DNA from: Periplaneta americana
Lineage: Eukaryota; Arthropoda; Insecta; Blattodea; Blattidae
Reading direction: 5' to 3'
Length of the DNA stretch: 64,000 nucleotides
Assembly (NCBI RefSeq): GCF_040183065.1
Contig: NC_091119.1
Span: forward strand, 186,476,543-186,540,542
The notes beneath the pieces were generated by a model. It was given only the letters and a program-made list of their open reading frames with translations, was not told where the DNA came from and ran no database searches. Positions 5,041 through 59,310 of the stretch are shown in pieces (position 1 is the first letter of the stretch; each line of letters opens with the position of its first letter). Made by a program: the position numbers and the translations under genes.

Positions 5041-5160
5041 TGGGAATCCAGTGTGGCTTAGTGGATAAAGCATCAGCATGTAGAGCTGAAAACCCGGTTC
5101 AAATCACGATGCCAGAGAGAATTTTTCTCCGTTCCACTACTCTTTCATCGTATACTTGTA
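5041..5160 (+). mobile_element. tRNA-derived SINE (family A), copy 2
   Basis: Matches copy 1 through the tRNA-like head (TGGCTTAGTGGATAAAGCATC) and the tail GAGAATTTTTCTCCGTTCC. Box B is damaged (CGGTTCAAATCACG). It follows directly on the apparent continuation of copy 1 after the DNA transposon (about 4836-5040), so the two may form a dimer or tandem with a unit of roughly 400 bp. Confidence 0.7.
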
Positions 5161-10790: not shown

Positions 10791-11955
10791 TGCTACTACC
10801 CACCATTATTCGTTTCCAGCTATTGAACATACTTTATAGCGGCTTGTAAATCCAATCCTCTCAATTTTTCAATTAATCTGCCATTCACGACGTACCATTG
10901 TTTATGCCCGTGTCACCGGCTGAAAGTCGTTATGTTTATATATTGATGTTTTCCGTTGCGCAATTTAATTTGTCGCTTGGAAATCTGCGTTGATACATAC
11001 TTAATAAACATTGAAGCAGAAAAGGATAGGACAGTAGAATAAAGTATTTGCACACGTGTCTCCATGGCTACTAAAACAGCACACGAGCGAGTTCCGTACG
11101 TCAATCCACGATAAATTAGAGACAACGTAGACGATGTCAGAGCCTCCTAGCGGCTACACAAGTAGTAATATCTCCTTAACAATCCTATTCGTCTTCGGGG
11201 GGATTCTTTATAAGAAAGTCCGCAAACAAACCCAATAACGTTGCTGAACTGTATGTCCACCCCCACCCCATCCCCACGAGGAGAAAATATATTTGATTCT
11301 TCTGTGTCTCACAGCGTACCGATATTGCGTCAGTTTTAGAAAACAAATATGTGGGGACATCTGCATGGGCGGTATTGAACTAAACTTGAGTGTGATGTAA
11401 AGTTTGTGAGGCTGCTTGATGTTGACCCCTTGAAAGTAAACAAAGGAAGTCGGAGCCTTACGCCCTATTCTAACTCACATTCTACAACGAGAATCGTGTA
11501 TGAAGATTAGTGCCAAAATCTCTGTGCAGTAAAGAAACATTGTTTATAGAAAAGTGTTTGAATCTGCATCAGGATATTAATTCTCTAATTTTCTGTTAAA
11601 ACAAACTTGTTTTGTTTTGATTTTGATTTCATCAATAAAACTACTTTTATAACGTAAGGACTAATAAAACGTATCTACAATCAAATTGCTACCATAGTGA
11701 TAACCATTACCATAACCATAACCATAACCATACATAGTGTTGTTTCTGCATGAATTAAATTAAATATTACATAGTGGTGCAAAAAATACGGTATGCCCTT
11801 TTAGGTGATATTAAGGGACAGGACCTATATAAAATAACAAAACTTGCCAAACATGAAAACATTTTATGTTTGTTACTTTTTATTGAAAGTATCGCTTCAT
11901 CTTAGTCCGTTAAATTAAAAAAAAAGCGAATAATTAAAATTTGTTTGAAGAAACG
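10791..11955. other. no recognisable feature; small ACCATA repeat
   Basis: Nothing coding is recognised. A short (ACCATA)n run occupies 11697-11732. Confidence 0.55.
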
Positions 11956-12360
11956 TTTCGATTATCCAACTTAATTAATTTATTCTGAATTTAATGTATT
12001 TAATATTGAACAAATTGATAAGAATACGCTGTTAAAATTTTATCATAAAAATCGTAATAAGTTTGTATTACAGACACATAATTATGACACAAGACGAAAT
12101 ATTAATTCAGCATTAGTAGAACCTAAATGTCTCACATCTGCTGGTCTAAAGCATAGCATTAATTTTGGCCCTCGGTTGTACATGCTTTAATTAAATTACA
12201 CCCAGAACTTCTAACATGTAACCCACTAACATATAACAAGAAAATCAGAAACGTGTTAATATCTTCAATTTGATTAAATAAATTTATAGCCTATGTGTAT
12301 GAATTAATCAACCTATATTATATTTGTATCCTATAATTTTGAAATATAGGCCTATATACA

Positions 12361-12412
<52 letters not shown>

Positions 12413-12835
12413 CTACTTTTCACGTGCGATATTATTCTTCTCTAGTGTTAACATTATATAATATTAATTCCATTGTCGCTGTAATTTAAATTGTAATTTA
12501 AATTTTAGTTCCTATTTTATTTTACTTATTTATTTTTATTATTTTTTTTCTATATTTCTCTTATATTAATATTGTATTATATAATTTCTGTAACTGTAAT
12601 TTTAATTCTATTTCCTATTTTATTTTATTTTATATTCTCTTATAGGCCTATTAATATTATATCTGAACTGCGACCGAACACGAGCGCTGCTCATTCGGTC
12701 TCAAATTTTGTTAATACTACTGTAGGCTATCTTGTTTTTTTATATTGTTTGTATTATATTTTCTATTTCTCTTGTTTGTTTGTAATTATATATTCTTTAT
12801 TCTGTATATTTAAATTTAAATAAATTTAAATCCAT
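11956..12835 (+). mobile_element. LINE 3' end (GLKHSINFGP family), with conserved hairpin and (TA)n
   Basis: 12060-12270 encodes THNYDTRRNINSALVEPKC, TSAGLKHSINFGPRLY and IKLHPELLTCNPLTYNKKI, the C-terminus of a LINE RT protein. The same family occurs on the minus strand at 58190-59310. One frameshift breaks the reading near GPRLY. The 3' UTR has a (TA)n tract at 12361-12409 and a hairpin at 12672-12700: GACCGAA pairs perfectly with TTCGGTC and an inner GAGC pairs with GCTC. The element seems to end near 12835 in a TTTAAATTTAAATAAAT tail. Confidence 0.7.
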
Positions 12836-18093: not shown

Positions 18094-18351
18094 GTTATTA
18101 TTATTATTGTTATTATTATTATTATTACTATTATTTTATTGGTGTTGTGAAGATGAAAAGAATTGTTATTGTATTATATTAATTATGTATTATATTGTCT
18201 TGTATTGTAGTATTGTATTGCTTTGAATTGTATTGTATTGTATTGTATTGTATTAATTATGTTATATTCACAGCATTGTAGCAATTTTTTATCATACTGG
18301 TTGAGTGGAAGAGAAGGCCGAATGGCCTTAACTCTGCCAGTTAAAATAAAC

Positions 18352-27744: not shown

Positions 27745-27860
27745 AGTCCACACCTGTGGAGTAACGGTTAGCGCGTCTGGCCGCGAAACCAGGTGACCCG
27801 GGTTCGATTCCCGGTTGGGGCAAGTTACCTGGTTGAGGTTTTCCCTCAACCTAATATGAG
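27745..27860 (+). mobile_element. tRNA-derived SINE (family B), truncated
   Basis: GTCCACACCTGTGGAGTAAC, GGTTAGCGCGTCTGGC (box A), CCGGGTTCGATTCCCGG (box B), CAAGTTACCTGGTTGAGG and CCCTCAACC. It stops at CAACCTAATATGAG (27858) without the conserved 3' tail and abuts a LINE RT relic. Confidence 0.85.
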
Positions 27861-31010: not shown

Positions 31011-31870
31011 CTTTTATCATTGCTTATCTACAATTTTAAACGTGTTTAATTTTATTGTAAACCATTTTTACTTATATAATTAATTGTGCAATTATTGTTA
31101 TTAATTATTGTTGCAATCTCACATAATCGTTTGATTGCTGATACATCGAAGAAAAAACGATACAAATAAAAGAAATTAACGTGGGAGGAAAAAAACTATC
31201 ACTTAGTTAAAAGCATGCTGTTCAAAATTAATATCAGTGTAATTCGATTCCCATTGGTCAATGAGCTCGTTCATGGTAATATCAATTGAATTTTGTGTAC
31301 TTAATTTTTAATATCTTATTTTAGCTATCATAAACCATTGATTTCATTTTTAAATTCTGAAGAAGTTGAGTATAAAAGTGTTAAATTTAACCTCAATTGA
31401 TCGCCATTCATTCCACAAACATTTAGAAGTTTTACTACACATCTCAGAAATTGTGCCTTTGTCGTGCGTTCAGTCTACGCACAAATATCTTGTTTCATTT
31501 TTTAGAACATCAGTGAATATCGATATTATGGTGGTATGTATGTTTCACATGTATTTTATTTCTATTTCCAAATACGTATATTTGAGCGGGTATTGTTTTC
31601 TTTCTTTGTTATTTTTCTGTGAAGTGCAATAGCGATATCAATAATTTGGCAAGTCACGTATGATGCTTTTTTTTTTTTTGCTGCCCTGTTGGTTGTATTG
31701 GAAAAATCCACAATACAGTGATATTATTTTCCTTGTGACAGCTTTCGGATAATGTAGACAACACTGTTCCGCTGTGATCAGTTCCATGTTCTTATACGTA
31801 TATGTATTTCATAACGTAGCAATTTACATTCAACGTTATAATGTAATATCTATCAAAGACATCCAGAAAA
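31011..31870. other. no recognisable feature
   Basis: AT-rich; an 88-codon open frame at 31366 matches nothing I recognise. Poly-T at 31668-31679. Confidence 0.55.
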
Positions 31871-31875
31871 GACCT

Positions 31876-32455
31876 TTCTTTCTTTCTCTCTATATTTCTT
31901 TCTTTCTTGTATCTCTTTCTTTCTCTCTTTCTTTCTTTTCTCTATTCCTTCTTTTCTCTCTTTCTTTCTTTTCTCTTCCTTTCTTTCTTTGTTTCTCTGT
32001 TTCTCTTTTTCCTCCCTCTCTTTCTTTTCTTTCCTTCTTTTCTCTCTTTCTTTCTTTCTTTTCTTTCTATTCTTTCTTTCTCTCTTTTTCTTTTCTCCTT
32101 CTATCTTTTCTCTCCTTCTTTTCTCTCTTTTTCTTTTCTTTCTCTCTCTCTTTCTTTCTCTCTTCTCTCTCTTTTTCTTTCTTTCTTTTCTCTCTCTTTC
32201 TCTCTTTCACTCTCTTTCTTTCTTTCTCTTTTTGTCTTTTTTTCTCTCTTTCTATCTTTCTTTCTCTCTCTCTTTTCTCTCTTACTCTATATTTCTTTCT
32301 TGTATCTCTTTCTTTCTCTTTTTCTTTCTTTTCTCTCTTTCTTTCTTTTCTCTCTCTTTCTTTCTCTCTCTTTCTTTCTTTTCTCTCTCTTTCTTTCTTT
32401 CTCTCTCTTTCTTTCTTTCTTTCTCTCTTTCTTTCTTTTCTCTCTTTCTTTCTTT

Positions 32456-32488
<33 letters not shown>

Positions 32489-32972
32489 CTCTCTTTTCTC
32501 TCTTTCTTTCTTTCTTTCCTTCTTTCTTTCTTTCCTTCTTTCTTTCTTTCTCTGTTTCTGTTTCTCTTTTTCCTCCCTCTCTTTCTTTTCTTTCCTTCTT
32601 TTCTCTCTTTCTTTCTTTTCTTTCTATTCTTTCTCTCTTTTTCTTTTCTCTCTTTCTTTCTTTTCTCTCTTTTTCTTTTCTTTCTTTCTCTCTCTCTTTC
32701 TTTCTTTCTTTCTTCTCTCTCTCTTTTCTCTCTCTTTCACTCTCTTTCTTTCTTTCTCTCTTTTTCTTTCTTTCTTTTCACTCTTTCTTTCTTTCTCTCT
32801 CTTTTCTCTCTTTCTCTCTATATTTCTTTCTTTCTTGTATCTCTTTCTTTCTCTCTCTTTCTTTCTTTTCTCTATTCTTTCTTTTCTCTCTTTCTTTCTT
32901 TCTTTCTTTTCTTTCTTTTCTTTTCTTTCTCTCTTTCTCTCTTTTTTCTCTTTCTTTCTTTCTTTCTTTCCA
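31876..32972. repeat. 1.1-kb (CTTT)/(CTCT) pyrimidine array
   Basis: Almost pure C/T on the plus strand. Larger duplications are visible: the segment with TGTTTCTCTTTTTCCTCCCT occurs at about 31995 and 32560, and TTTCTTGTATCTCTTTCTTT at about 31905, 32294 and 32832. All overlapping open frames (up to 422 codons, Phe/Leu/Ser) are artefacts of the repeat. Confidence 0.97.
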
Positions 32973-33119
32973 AATTCTTGACACAATATACAGGATAATG
33001 CACGACATTCTCCCCACAGCGGTCTATAGAGGTGATTCCTGATGTTATTTGGAACAAAAAATGTAAATAAATTAGTGGGATCATATTCATAATTGCGAAG
33101 TTACAACACATTTTCGAAA

Positions 33120-42439: not shown

Positions 42440-44975
42440 AGGTCGAGAAAGAGAGATCAAGAATTGACTTAATCTAAGACTTTTTTTACGAAGAGATAGT
42501 GGAAGAACAGAGGGAGGTTGAGGAAGACTGGGGACAGAAGTTTTAGGATAAGTATTGACAGTATGTTGAGGTTGGATACGGACAGAACGTTGAACATAAG
42601 TAAGGGCAGTATTTGAGGATCAGTAGAGACTAGGTGTTGAGGATAAATATGGACAAGGACATTGAAAATGAGTAGGGGCAGTATTTAAATATGAGTAGGA
42701 AGAGCATGTTGAAGATTAGTTGGAACTGGATGTTGAGAATAAGTAGGAATAGAATATGGAGGATGATTATGAAGAGAATATAGAAAATGAGTAGGAAAAG
42801 GGTGAAGAAGATGAGTGGGAACTTGATGTCGAGGATAAGTAGAAACAGAATGTCGAGGATATGTAGGAACATTATTTCGAGAATAAGTAGCAACAGGATG
42901 TCGAAGACGAGTAGGAACAGAAAATTGAGGATGAATAGGAACAGGACAGAAAGTCGAGGATGAGTAGGAACAGGATGTCGAAGATGAGTAAGAACAGAAA
43001 ATTGAGGATGAATAGGAACAGGACAGAATGTCGAGGATGAGTAGGAACAGGATATCGAGGATGAGTAGGAAGAGAAAATTGAGGATGAATAGGAACAGGA
43101 CAGGATGTCGAGGATGAGTAGGAACAGGATGTCCAAGGTGAGTAAGAACAGAAATTTGAGGATGAATAGAAACAGGACAGGATGTCGAGGATGAGTAGGA
43201 ACAGGATGTCGAAGATGAGTAAGAACAAAAATTGAGGATGAATAGGAACAGGACAGAATGTCGAGGATGAGTAGGAACAGGATGTCGAAGATGAGTAAGA
43301 ACAGAAAATTGAAGATGAATAGAAACAGGACAGGATGTCGAGGATGAGTAGGAACAGGATATCGAAGATGAGTAAGAACAGAAAATTGAGGATGAATAGG
43401 AACAGGACAGAATGTCGAGGATGAGTAGGAACAGGAAGTCGAAGATGAGTAAGAACAGAAAATTGAGGATGAATAGGAACAGGACAGGATGTCGAGAATG
43501 AGTAGGAACACGACATCGAAGATGAGTAGGAAGAAAAAATTGAGGATGAATAGGAAGAGGTCAGAATGTCGAGGATGAGTAGGAACAGGATGTCGAAGAT
43601 GAGTAAGAACAGAAAATTGAGGATGAATAGGATCAGGACAGGATGTCGATGATAATTAGGAACACGATGTCGAAAATGAGTAGGAACAAAAAATTGAAGA
43701 TGAGTAGGAACAGGATGTCTAAGATGAGTAGGAAGAGAAAATTGAGGATGAATAGGAACAGGACAGGATATCGAGGATGACTAGGAACAGGATGTCGAAG
43801 ATGAATAAGAACAGAAAATTGAGGATGAATAGGAACAGAACAGGATGTCGAGGATGAGTAAGAACACGATGTCGAAGATGAATAAGAACAGAAAATTGAG
43901 GATGAATAGGAACAGGACAGGATGTCGAGGATGAGTAGGAACACGATGTCGAAAATGAGTAGGAACAAAAAATTGAAGATGAGTAGGAACAGGATGTCGA
44001 AAATGAGTAGGAACAGAAAATTGAGGATGCATAGGAACAGGACAGAATGTCGAGGATGAGTAGGAACAGGATGTCGAAGATGAGTAAGAACAGAAAATTG
44101 AGGATGAATAGAAACAGGACATGATGTCGAGGATGAGTAGGAACAGGATGTCGAAGATGAGTAGGAACAAAAGAAATTGAAGATGAGTAGGAACAAAAGA
44201 AATTGAAGATGAGTAGGAACAAAAGAAATTGAAGATGAGTAGGAACAAAAGAAATTGAAGATGAGTAGGAACAGGATGTCGATGATAAGTAGGAAGAGGA
44301 TGTCGATGATGAGTAGGAACAGGATGTCGAAGATGAGTAGGAACAAAAAAAATTGAGGATGAGTAGGAACAGGACAGAATGTCGAGGATGAGTAAGAACA
44401 GGATCTCGAAGATGAGTAGGAACAGGATGTCGATGATGAGTAGGATAAAAAAAATTGAGGATGAGTAGGAACAGGATGTCGATGATAAGTAGGAAGAGGA
44501 TGTCGATGATGAGTAGGAACAGGATGTCGAAGATGAGTAGGAACAAAAAAAATTGAGGATGAGTAGGAACAGAATGTCGATGATGAGTAGGAACAGGATG
44601 TCGATGATGAGTAGGATCAAAAAATTTAGGATGAGTAGGAACAGGATGTCGATGATGATTGGAACAGAAAATTGAGGATGAGTAGGAACAGGATGACGAA
44701 GATGAGTAGGAACAAAAAATTGAGGATGAGTAGGAACAGGATGTCGATGACGAGTAGGAACAGGATGTCGATGATGAGTAGGAACAGAAAATTGAGGATG
44801 AGTAGCAATGGGACGTCGTGGATTGGTCGGTATAGGATGACAATGAATACGAACATAATGTTGATTACGGACGGGATGCTGAGGATAAGCAGGGACAGGA
44901 GGTTAAATCTTAGTACGGAGAGGAGGTTGAGTATGTGTAGAGGCAAAAGGCTGAGTATGGGTAATGAAAGGAGAT
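42440..44975. repeat. 2.5-kb minisatellite of ~24-28-bp units
   Basis: Basic unit GATGAGTAGGAACAGGATGT plus CGAG. In the core (42870-43650) three variants (…GGATGTCGAAG, …GAAAATTGAGG, …GGACAGAATGTCGAG) alternate in a higher-order unit of about 78 bp. At 44160-44270 a four-fold run of a 26-bp AAAAGAAATTGAAGATGAGT unit appears. The edges (42540-42860, 44800-44960) are much more diverged. Minus-strand Ser/Tyr/Cys-rich frames up to 374 codons span it in all three phases and are artefacts. Confidence 0.95.
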
Positions 44976-52519: not shown

Positions 52520-52772
52520 CCACACCTATGGAGTAACGGTCAACGCGTCTGGCCGCGAAACCAGGTGGCCCGGGTTCGAATCCCGGTCGGGACAAGTTAC
52601 ATAGTTGAGGTTTTTTCCGGGGTTTCCAATACGAGCAAATACTGGGTAACTTTCGGTGCTGGATCCCGGACTCATTTCACCGGCATTATCACCTTCATTT
52701 TCATTCAGACGCTAAATAACGTAGATGTTGATACAGCGTCGTCAAATAAACCAATAAAATAAAAATATACCG
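52520..52772 (+). mobile_element. tRNA-derived SINE (family B), full-length copy
   Basis: Head GTCCACACCTATGGAGTAAC, GGTCAACGCGTCTGGCC, box B CGGGTTCGAATCCCGG, then CAAGTTACATAGTTGAGG, TGGGTAACTTTCGGTGC, GGACTCATTTCACCGGC, and tail GACGCTAAATAACG, TTGATACAGCGTCGTC, AATAAACCAATAAAA. Confidence 0.9.
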
Positions 52773-52788
52773 AATGTTGTATTTCGTT

Positions 52789-52831
<43 letters not shown>

Positions 52832-53275
52832 TTTTCTTAAATAATAACAGTGTAGGCTATATCTCCAATAAATGATTTCTTAGCATCGCCACAGATACAC
52901 TTGATTGACTTGTCACTATCTCTGGGACTAGAGAGTTATTGAAATTTATATTTTCTCCGCCATTCATAAAATAAACAGTTTGACTCGTAGACATTTTGTT
53001 TTCCAGCATTAACTTCCCATGATTGTACGAGAAGATTCGAAGAGAACGGCAGTTACGTAGACCTTCGGCTCCCCCCTACTACCAATAATGCATAGCACAA
53101 TGTCAATACGGCGGTTGCTGTCGTCTGCGATACAACGAACTTTTCTGTTGATTTTCGAGTTCATTTTTTTTTTCTGCTTATTATATGCTTATTTAAGTTG
53201 TGTTAACTCTCGCTAGTGGTTTTATACTTTATTTTATCCGTCTTAGTATTTATTTTATTATTGTAAATATTTTTG

Positions 53276-53322
<47 letters not shown>

Positions 53323-53339
53323 GTAATGAATTAATTTGT
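52773..53339. other. unassigned, with (TA)n 52794-52829 and (TTA)n 53279-53321
   Basis: Two microsatellites and nothing else recognised. Confidence 0.6.
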
Positions 53340-53374
53340 ATTACTATCTTTGTATCATCTCCGTGACGGATATT

Positions 53375-53407
<33 letters not shown>

Positions 53408-53575
53408 CTATTATTTCTAACATAAACATTATTATTGATCTCTTTAAAATTTATGGAGACTACTGGACTGTACCCGAGCACGAGCATGTTTCATTTCGGG
53501 TATATATTCATATGTATCATTTCAAATGTAAATTGTGAATAAATTTGAATTTGAATTTGAATTTGTTTAGTGTTT
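53340..53575 (+). mobile_element. LINE 3' tip with conserved hairpin and (GAATTT)n tail
   Basis: Hairpin 53471-53502: TACCCGA pairs with TCGGGTA around GCACGAGCATGTTTCATT. It ends GAATAAATTTGAATTTGAAT (53537-53566). The hairpin is homologous to those at 12672 and 58207. No coding part is recognised. Confidence 0.65.
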
Positions 53576-55058: not shown

Positions 55059-55092
55059 TGGAAAGGCAGAGTTAAGGCCGTAAGGCCATCGC
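55059..55092 (-). mobile_element. fragment of the CR1-like LINE 3' tail
   Basis: Minus strand CTGGTTGAGTGGAAGCGATG, GCCTTACGGCCTTAACTCTG, CC, as in 18283-18340 and 56298-56340. It joins the truncated 5' end of the endonuclease-type LINE directly. Confidence 0.7.
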
Positions 55093-55794
55093 TTCCACTC
55101 AACCAGCAAAAAGTATACATACATATGTATCAACTTAGAAAGAATTAAACAATTTGATTTAGATAAGAGCTACATGTATACAAGAGTTATTTACGAATTA
55201 AACAAGAAAATACTATGAACTATTAATTAAACACTGAAATACAAACTATGTAGCAGAATTAAGCTAAAATACATAGACTATTAATATATTTCAAATAATG
55301 TTAGATAATAGAAAGAGATTTATTATGAGACAATTTTGAAAATACAGCACTATCAGGATGCATCTCTTAGTTTAAAGAGAAAATAGGGTATAAGTTATTC
55401 AAAAGTCACAAAAAATTTGAAAAGACTCTAATTATGTTAAAAAAATAAGTTCACAGAAAAATAATGACACAGTTTTGTTCTTAAAAGGACAGGTATTTTT
55501 AAAAAATTCAGGAAATGAATGAAAGTATTCAAACTTTGTAATACAGTTTTGTTCAAGAAAAATGCGTTCTATTAAGAAATAGTCCACTTTCAAAACAGAA
55601 ACATAGTAACAGAGTGATTGAATAAGTAACTAACTGACGACTGACTGACTAACTTAATAACTTATTAAATAAATGAATAAATGAATCAATAAATAAATGG
55701 AAAGGTAGTTAGATGGATAAATAAATAAGTAGATAACTAAGTAAATAAATAAATGAATGAATAAATAAATAATAATTCACATAAATAAATAATT
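55093..55794. other. no gene; (AAAT)n-like low complexity at 55660-55790
   Basis: AT-rich, ending in degenerate AAATAAATGAATAA repeats. Nothing coding. Confidence 0.55.
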
Positions 55795-56287: not shown

Positions 56288-56556
56288 TTTATTTAACCTG
56301 GCAGAGTTAAGGCCATACGGCCTTCTCTAACACTCAACCAGGAGTAAAAACTGCGTTATAGAAACACTACAAATTTACAAAGTACACACAAAACTGAATA
56401 AGATAATAATAATAAAATGTAAACAACATGTAAGAAGAAATCAGACATAATATATAACATACAGAAAGAAAGAAAAAAGCATAATAAAATGTGAACAGCA
56501 GGTCAAAAATAAATGAGGCCTACAAACTATAAAAAATAAGACAATTATTGATGATG

Positions 56557-57442: not shown

Positions 57443-57562
57443 CTTTCTTTTCTATGTATTTTTCAAATAACAAAAATAAATCTTACCTTACCGCTTTCAT
57501 TTCATTTAATTTCATTTTTTTTTTCATTTCATTTCATTTATTTAATACTATAAACTTGAGCT
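57443..57562. other. spacer with (ATTTC)n
   Basis: ATTTCATTTCATTTATTT low complexity. Confidence 0.5.
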
Positions 57563-58185
57563 AACAGCTTTACATATTTAGGATCAGTGGTCACTAGCGA
57601 TAATAACATGTCCAAAGAAATCTCTAATCGATTAATGAAAGCAAACAGAGCATATTTTGGCTTGAAATATCACTTTAGTTCGCATGCTCTATCCAGGAAA
57701 GTAAAAGTTATTCTTTACAAAACATTAGTGAGACCAGTTTTGACATATGCAGCAGAAACGTGGTCAATCTCCAAAAATGATTAAAAAGACTGGAGATTTT
57801 CGAAAGAAAGATTCTGCGAAGGATCTATGGCCCAACATTTGAGGAAGGTCTCTGGAGGAGGAGATGCAACTATGAATTATATAGACTTCTAGGAGAGCCA
57901 AATATAATCAATACAGTTAAAACTAGCAGATTGAGGTGGCAGGACATGTAATATGCATGGACCCAAGTGAACCTTGCAAAAAAATTGTAATAAATCCGGG
58001 AGGTCAGAGAAGACGAGGTCGACTGCACTTGCGATGCATTGATGGAGTGGAAGAGGATGCCAGAAAGTTGGGGTGCAAGAATTGGAAGGCTGCTATACAA
58101 GATAGAGACGGATGGCTACAATTACTAAGGGAGGCCCAGGCCCACCAAGGGGGGCTGTAGCGCCAATGATGATGATGATGACACT
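57563..58185 (+). pseudogene. RTE-like LINE, post-RT region and 3' end
   Basis: Reads SFTYLGSVVTSDNN, MSKEISNRLMKANRAYFGLK, LYKTLVRPVLTYAAETWSIS, a stop/frameshift, KRLEIFERKILRRIYGP, RLRW (small deletion), GHVICMDPSEPCKKI, GGQRRRGRLHLRCIDGVEED, GCKNWKAAIQDRDGWLQLLR, EAQAHQGGL, stop. This is the region after the RT palm in RTE-like proteins. At least two frame breaks. The 3' end is GGGGGGCTGTAGCGCC followed by (AATGATG)n, where it meets another LINE tail to tail. Confidence 0.85.
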
Positions 58186-59310
58186 TGAGCTACATTAGGC
58201 ATTGCAGCCCGAAAGAGCAGAAGCTCGTGCTCGGGCGCAGTTCAGATGAGTTATACAAAATATATCACACAATTAAGAGAGTTCATTGAGCACAATAACA
58301 TTAATAAATGGTAAAATAATACAGCATGTAATAATAGGGTCTATATACAAATAGAAAATACAAAAGTACATGAATATTAGAGTATCAATTTTTAACTCAA
58401 TTAGCTTAAACAATTAAATAATTAATCTGATTTGTTTTTTAAATCTATGTGTGTTCAGTGTACTTAGCTCAGGGTAAGCTCTAATTAATGTATTATATAT
58501 TTTGGGTCCAAAATTTATTCTGTGTTTTAATCCAGCAGTTGTGTGGCATTTGGGAGTATTTAGAAATAAACTGTAGTTTTGTCTCGTATGGTATTCATGA
58601 GGATCAAATTTAAATTTATTGTGGTTTTTATGGAAGTAAATCAGCAATGTTTGTTTATAAATTTGTTCTAGATTTGATACAACAAATTCCTGAAAAAATA
58701 ATTTTGTAGGGTAATCAAAACGTTTATATAGACAAATTTTGATAATTCTTTTTGGAGCAAATTTAAAGGATGGAGAGTCGATTTTGCCATTCCTCCCCAA
58801 CCTAATATACCATACTGAATTATTTATTGAGTCCACATCTGTGGAGTAACGGTCAGCGCGTCTGGCCGGGAAACCAGGTGGCCCGGGTTCGAATCCCGGT
58901 TGGGGCAAGTTACCTGGTTGAGGTTTTTTCCGGGGTTTTCCCTCAACCCAATACGAGCAAATGCTGGGTAACTTTCGGTGCTGGACCCCGGACTCATTTC
59001 ACCGGCTTTATCACCTTCATTTCATTCAGACGCTAAATAACCTAGATGTTGATACAGCGTCGTAAAATAACCCAATAAAAATTATTGATTGAAACAGAGC
59101 TAAGTACACAGTACGCAGAACATAAACGGGTATATAAGAGCGTAGAATGGAAAATTTGTGGATTGTTTTACGCAGTCTGTTACACAGGAAGGAGATATGC
59201 TTGTCCCATTTTAAATGTAGGTCAATAATAATGCCTAAATATTTAACTTGTGGGGATATACTCAAAGCGTTACATGAGCAAGTAGCTAGGTTACAATAAT
59301 GTATTTTCAG
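58186..59310 (-). pseudogene. LINE RT C-terminal half (GLKHSINFGP family), split by a SINE
   Basis: Minus strand. Upper part (59310-59089): ISPQVKYLGIIIDLHLKWDK, HISFLCNRLRKTIHKFSI, YVLRTVYLALFQS. After the SINE (58827 down): IIQYGILGWGGMAKS, with breaks, HEYHTRQNYSLFLNTPKC, TAGLKHRINFGPKIYNTLIR and AYPELSTLNTHRFKKQIRLI, stop at about 58416. The 3' UTR has a hairpin at 58207-58236 (GCCCGA/TCGGGC with inner GAGC/GCTC) and ends at a (CAT)n tract near 58170-58185. Several stops mark it as dead. Same family as 11956-12835. Confidence 0.82.
58828..59088 (+). mobile_element. tRNA-derived SINE (family B), full-length, inside a LINE
   Basis: GTCCACATCTGTGGAGTAAC, GGTCAGCGCGTCTGGCC, CCGGGTTCGAATCCCGG, CAAGTTACCTGGTTGAGG, CCCTCAACCCAATACGAG, GGACCCCGGACTCATTTC and the tail GACGCTAAATAACC, TTGATACAGCGTCGTAAAAT, CCAATAAAA. 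It is flanked by AATTATTTATTGA and AATTATTGATTGA, a near-perfect target duplication. Confidence 0.92.

Follow-up and report, generated by a model that had tools for sequence, protein, structure and literature searches.

A two-tier hairpin kept across four families of LINE-like 3′ tails in a cockroach genome

Introduction

Does a hairpin that recurs in a window of 64,000 nucleotides of Periplaneta americana DNA (the whole stretch analysed here) serve LINE elements in their own copying, or is it a remnant of common descent? The first-pass annotation had placed one hairpin, built around CACGAGC, at three LINE 3′ ends (12672, 53471 and 58207), had linked it to a C-terminus of the GLKHSINFGP type, and had claimed that pairing rather than sequence is kept.

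Such a signal would have precedents, for which we draw on excerpts of the papers cited below by accession. In zebrafish ZfL2-1 and ZfL2-2, deleting or swapping the 3′ stem-loop stops retrotransposition, and in ZfL2-2 breaking the stem does so as well; a different stem can stand in for the original one (PMC4176376). The ORF2 region between the endonuclease and the reverse transcriptase (RT) binds the stem-loop in ZfL2 (PMC4176376). UnaL2 requires a stem-loop plus a tandem repeat (PMC4176376, PMC5135761). An asymmetric internal loop, separated from the terminal loop by 4-6 bp, is given as a characteristic feature (PMC5135761).

Results

Three hairpins of one layout

At all three places the hairpins have the sequences first reported. 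They belong to different families of copies (A to D, sorted further below), and each follows a conserved block:

12672..12700, plus strand: two-tier hairpin of family B, GACCGAA-CAC-GAGC-GCT-GCTC-A-TTCGGTC
58207..58236, minus strand: two-tier hairpin of family C, GCCCGAG-CAC-GAGC-TTCT-GCTC-T-TTCGGGC
53471..53502, plus strand: hairpin of family A, lower stem whole, upper stem partly decayed; found by a covariance model built without 53471
12663..12671, plus strand: conserved block immediately 5′ of the family B hairpin, CTGAACTGC, within the 42-nt block common with the 58k copy
53463..53470, plus strand: conserved block 5′ of the family A hairpin, CTGGACTG, aligned by the covariance model match
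58238..58245, minus strand: conserved block 5′ of the family C hairpin, CTGAACTG, from the blastn block against the 12k copy

The arms at 53471-53502 read TACCCGA...TCGGGTA around CACGAGC. In the shared layout a lower stem of 7 bp is topped by an asymmetric internal loop with CAC facing 1-2 nt, then by an upper stem of 4 bp (GAGC/GCUC) and a terminal loop of 3-5 nt; the upper stem above the CAC internal loop had been overlooked in the first-pass annotation. Taken in the order 12672, 58207, 53471, pair 1 of the lower stem is G-C, G-C and A-U, pair 2 is A-U, C-G and C-G, and pair 7 is A-U, G-U and G-U. The two compensating differences reported earlier are thus pairs 1 and 2, which show double changes within the window.

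Folding of 12672-12701 yields -14.3 kcal/mol (z -4.4) and of 58206-58237 -18.2 kcal/mol (z -4.1), and for both none of 200 shuffles folds as well. The 53471 hairpin alone reaches z -2.5, with 6/200 shuffles as good, and with its flanks it folds no better than shuffles (z -0.95, 34/200). This fold is weaker because the upper stem has partly decayed, with TTTC in place of the GCTC of the family A loci. The CTGGACTG block in front of it is found in 7/8 family A loci; L018 has CTGGAGTG.

Likeness beyond the shared geometry

Between the family B and family C 3′ UTRs of the window (12k and 58k), blastn aligns one block of 42 nt with 36/42 identities (E 2e-9), composed of ATCTGAACTG and the hairpin; the next matches between these UTRs are brief stretches of AT-rich sequence, with E no better than 0.017. 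The hairpins at 58207 and 53471 have 20/23 positions in common (blastn, E 4e-4). For 12672 against 53471 the hairpin is absent among the blastn matches listed, which are AT-rich sequence.

A covariance model made solely from 12672 and 58207 recovers 53463-53502 with E 0.0018, the next best match having E 0.97; these E-values are rough, the calibration being short. The three window sequences alone give no significant covariation, as 55/500 shuffles reach it. A geometry of this kind (7 bp, internal loop, 4 bp) is present at 242 places in the window; seven of these have at least 7 G/C in the 14 stem bases, 12672 and 58236 being two of them, and the 53471 hairpin falls outside this geometry. A search for target-site duplications (TSDs) around the three window copies gave no convincing pair.

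Copies across the genome

The genome containing the window has 3,231,669,367 bases (3.23 Gb). The core pattern has 10,082 exact matches there (5,010 + 5,072) and its reversed control 0. When the whole lower stem is left free (CTGNACTGN8CACGAGC) we count 9,235 matches (4,568 + 4,667), with 7 (3 + 4) for the control; a pattern that frees both lower arms and takes a loop of 3 nt gives 5,037 (2,532 + 2,505), with 0 + 0 for the control. Among the 3-nt-loop matches listed, which come from the first part of one contig, we recognise by eye families B, D and variants. The search patterns fix CACGAGC, and the 3-nt-loop one GCTC too, so that constancy of these motifs within those lists is no result; it counts only between copies found otherwise, namely in the window and in the 12k-58k blastn block.

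In public collections the patterns matched 0, 11 and 0 times in viral_contigs and 3 times in genome_contigs. All 14 matches lie in DNA of 52-72% GC, none with AT-rich LINE flanks (by eye), and we regard them as chance matches. No relative was returned when viral_contigs was searched at the protein level, and none was found among plasmids.

The UnaL2 3′ element is Rfam RF00436. Its covariance model had no match on the window (E up to 1), nor, with E allowed up to 10, at the two hairpins out of three that were scanned in this way. Across Rfam, every family stayed below its gathering score at the hairpins, and the four unrelated matches that appear at a permissive threshold are far below it.

Four families and paired changes

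Thirty core-pattern loci sort by their flanks into families A (8), B (10), C (9) and D (3), all drawn from this one genome. The window holds one type each of A (53471), B (12672) and C (58207); D lies outside it. Terminal loops are mostly ATAT or ATTAT in A, GCT in B, TTCT in C and TTT in D. Pair 1 is A-U in A, G-C in B and C, and C-G in D; pair 2 is A-U in B and C-G in A, C and D; pair 7 is A-U or G-U, with G-U in A, C and part of B.

Seven representatives of A to D each fold into the two-tier form, with 49/49 lower-stem cells paired. This supports, over four families, the earlier claim that pairing is kept rather than sequence. As few as 3/20,000 shuffles pair as well as the seven representatives, and 381/20,000 do so when each family has one representative. 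Only about three double changes separate the families, and each of them falls at pair 1 or pair 2; pairs 3-6 are invariant between families and therefore silent on pairing, and CCGA/TCGG and CACGAGC are the same in 7/7 representatives. If the observed substitutions are dropped at random on the stem, all pairs are kept with a probability of 4e-5 to 2e-3; this null model is a simple star with family C as ancestor, and strong transition bias gives about 0.001-0.002.

We set the alignment of the representatives by hand to the family geometry, because MAFFT put family A off by one base, and it leans towards structure accordingly. Judged from the aligned sequences, support for pairing appears good, but with few events and a structure-led alignment. 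The hairpin is supported as kept across four families with differing flanks, pairs 1 and 2 changing doubly with pairing retained.

In 7/7 representatives the CAC internal loop, facing 1-2 nt, stands 4 bp from the terminal loop, in agreement with the asymmetric loop described in excerpts of PMC5135761. The terminal loop is of 3-5 nt, and not all representatives have the 5-7 nt given in the same source.

Decay within families

To neutral decay, which inserted LINE copies should undergo, we owe the rule that covariation must be judged between families and not, as proposed in the first-pass annotation, over all copies. Within families we compared 69 distinct segments, chosen regardless of the lower stem from 100 listed places of the 9,235, with identical ones merged and no segment excluded for being short. 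All seven lower pairs are kept in 53/69 (families by loop: 13/21 in A, 30/34 in B, 10/14 in C), and 16/69 lack at least one, as decay would give. In family D one of two copies has all seven lower pairs; the third locus, L043, has a shorter spacer and is unmatched by the pattern.

Overall, 93% of cells are paired, compared with a mean of 83% and a maximum of 87% in 1,000 shuffles. This within-family cell shuffle ignores relatedness, and families were set there by simple downstream words, which misfile 3/69 rows.

Coding ends, bodies and tails

Around the hairpins the window contains the following parts of elements (we infer the exact end of each tail):

11954..12181, plus strand: degenerate LINE ORF C-terminus with one stop, RFDYPT...GLKHSINFGPRLY; matched in tblastn by the C-terminus of the 58k copy at 45/76 identities, E 9e-26
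12810..12831, plus strand: 3′ tail of the family B copy, AAATTTAAATAAATTTAAAT
52810..53470, plus strand: family A body upstream of the hairpin, by blastn to other A loci; no ORF found
53538..53565, plus strand: 3′ tail of the family A copy, AATAAATTTGAATTTGAATTTGAATTTG, like the tails in L015 and L035
58417..58740, minus strand: LINE ORF C-terminus that closes with GLKHRINFGPKIYNTL...KKQIRLII, followed by a stop and the 3′ UTR; from the ORF list
57495..57543, minus strand: rest of the family C tail, TTAAATAAATGAAATGAAATGAA..., compare L025

Relatives of the 58k C-terminus lie upstream of the hairpin and on its strand in 19/30 loci. They are 87-93% identical to it in family C (matches at least 39 aa long; two short ones have 76% and 100%), 46-58% in family B and 45-46% in family D (both for matches over 80 aa). 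In B, C and D the order on one strand is ORF C-terminus, hairpin, tail. The 11/30 loci that have no same-strand relative of this C-terminus are all 8 of A and 3 of B; L041 has an additional match on the opposite strand. The proposed link to the GLKHSINFGP-type C-terminus holds for B, C and D; no such C-terminus was found at the loci of A, the family of 53471. In the same way, the placement at LINE 3′ ends stands for 12672 and 58207; at 53471 we see a LINE-like tail, with no coding region found.

YADDTVV, an RT active-site motif, is read in L053 (family D) and L045 (family C). The L053 piece scores 20.4 bits for RVT_1 in Pfam, below the 29.6 cut-off, the pieces being C-terminal fragments only; the other two of the three C-terminal pieces and the 58k ORF end have no RT match in Pfam.

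For family A, no ORF or LINE coding region was found beside the hairpin in the 8 loci and the window copy. Its body extends at least 660 bp before the window hairpin and closes with a LINE-like tail, and other family A copies begin at varied 5′ points, a 5′ truncation as in LINEs. We dropped the idea that family A consists of several bodies with one tail, since the 1.1 kb shared by L057 and L058 includes a repeat that has inserted into family A. In both loci this repeat lies upstream of the hairpin, at a distance of about 0.3-1.1 kb, and it resembles the window near 35.5 kb (by eye).

All four families include copies with an AATAAA-like sequence 3′ of the hairpin, and the distance from the hairpin to this sequence and a short tandem repeat is roughly 45-130 nt in most copies. 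The end repeats are TTTGAA, TGAAA, AAAT or ATT in most of the 30 loci, with little or none in some copies; several other B copies finish in repeats of the AAATAAATAAA type. Within ±1.5 kb, ARAGORN finds 8 tRNA genes in 7/30 loci, and the single one upstream on the strand of the hairpin is 1.4 kb off, in L035; decayed heads would escape both counts.

An insertion in the 58k copy and neighbouring repeats

The family C tail of the window is split:

57564..58182, strand not assigned: foreign insertion splitting the family C tail, with TAGCTCAAGT at 58192-58183 repeated at 57563-57554

Here TAGCTCAAGT is the target duplication flanking the insertion, and the family C tail resumes beyond it. Family C copies such as L022 pass from GTAGCTCAAGTG straight into the tail, unbroken. 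By eye, the inserted piece is presumably the 3′ end of another LINE on the plus strand; it is reversed relative to the C tail and has a CAT/ATG repeat end.

Several other repeats were seen in the window. A different stem-loop (by eye) forms around GGCCTTAACTCTGCCAG at LINE-type 3′ ends, around 18300-18345 (plus), 56298-56345 (minus) and 55063-55105 (minus); two copies continue into TTAAATAAATCATT or TTAAAATAAACCATT with ATT repeats, the third breaks off, and 0/100 shuffles give three matches. Rfam has tRNA-like matches at 52528-52587, 58835-58907, 27750-27822 and 5047-5117. Those at 52528 and 58835 are probably SINE heads, because both adjoin the same repeat, ACGAGCAAATRCTGGGTAACTTTCGG; the one at 58835 interrupts the 58k LINE. 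Long low-complexity repeat arrays, with several frames open, occupy 42630-44902 and 31753-33100.

Discussion

We now propose that the hairpin is likely the 3′ recognition element of a stringent-type LINE lineage, situated ahead of AATAAA and a microsatellite tail. By its sequence the layout is that of stringent-type LINE 3′ stem-loops. Tails that have otherwise drifted apart carry the same fold, which suggests, by analogy with the studied elements, that the copying enzyme recognises this shape. We infer from the same analogy that RT/ORF2 binds the hairpin: the ORF2 protein would bind it in the LINE RNA and, once bound, would bring the 3′ repeat to the nicked target site and begin target-primed reverse transcription. 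Since the terminal loop changes from one family to another, a likely contact surface would be the CAC internal loop, which is constant, together with the GAGC/GCUC helix. A further step, rather unlikely in our judgement, is that B, C, D and the ORF-less A share one code located at the CAC loop and GAGC/GCUC, not at the terminal loop, with enzymes that cross-copy and A as a non-autonomous passenger.

Four other readings have to be weighed. The hairpin could act more generally in the 3′ UTR, in the processing, stability or export of the LINE transcript, for instance aiding polyadenylation at AATAAA, and would then not be read by the LINE's own protein; we think this unlikely. The AATAAA-like sequence that follows the hairpin in all four families suits it, and the diverse end repeats (TTTGAA, TGAAA, AAAT, ATT), to be compared with the TGTAA repeats of UnaL2 in excerpts of PMC3747384, speak against it. 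That last argument is itself weak, as SART1 is stringent yet poly(A)-ended (PMC3747384).

It is distinctly improbable that recent common ancestry or an exchange of 3′ ends explains the likeness, with pairing unselected and the double changes coincidental. The identity of CCGA/TCGG and CACGAGC in all representatives and the small number of double changes, only about three, would fit such a history. Against it, the flanks of the B and C window copies give weak AT-rich matches while the block keeps 36/42, and under the simple star model with C as ancestor all pairs would survive with a chance of 4e-5 to 2e-3, the value varying with transition bias.

An action as DNA or as a host target, such as a protein-binding site or a small-RNA source, is in keeping with the high copy number; we regard it as highly improbable, for an asymmetric internal loop and a G-U pair 7 in A, C and part of B fit RNA better. 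Finally, chance hairpins beside AT-rich LINE ends are scarcely credible: the geometry is indeed frequent in the window and 53471 fails it, but geometry alone is rejected by the blind recovery of 53471 by the covariance model and by the genome counts with their controls.

As a candidate 3′ recognition element of LINEs, the cockroach hairpin can be set beside several known systems. SART1 is telomere-specific. Like SART1 (R1 clade, silkworm), where a 3′ stem-loop is required, the cockroach hairpin is found in an insect LINE (PMC5135761, PMC3747384), and unlike SART1, which has a poly(A) end, its copies are dispersed and carry diverse tandem repeats (PMC3747384). It resembles eel UnaL2 in that the stem has a small internal loop and a short tandem repeat comes after it (PMC5135761, PMC3747384), and differs from UnaL2 in that the GGAUA loop is absent. 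With zebrafish ZfL2-1 and ZfL2-2 (L2 clade) it has in common a stem-loop near the LINE 3′ end; in ZfL2 specificity lies in the terminal loop, whereas here it is the terminal loop that varies, with constancy in the internal loop and upper helix, in patterns that fix CACGAGC (excerpts of PMC4176376). This comparison with the L2 clade is one of hairpin layout, the LINEs here being read as C-terminal fragments.

The 3′ hairpins of monocot L1 elements and SINEs are similar in their compensatory changes, variable paired stem and conserved unpaired bases (PMC3747384). Those hairpins belong to plants and the L1 clade and are common to SINEs (PMC3747384); no SINE partner was seen here with ARAGORN, which decayed heads would escape. 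The SINE tails of Blattella differ from the tail with the present hairpin in excerpts of PMC9191728. We recognised no description of this hairpin among the papers listed on cockroach and termite LINEs and SINEs, a survey that drew mostly on papers outside the subscription journals and not on Repbase; among the papers listed for the core letters, no title or abstract opening dealt with LINEs. It would be a known kind of LINE 3′ signal, here in a new place, and may be recorded elsewhere.

With roughly 10,000 natural copies, these families make a compact set for how a LINE enzyme discriminates its own RNA from that of others. The part constant across them is not the terminal loop, which decides the specificity of ZfL2. 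The hairpin also offers a handle to find old LINE copies and to classify them by their tails.
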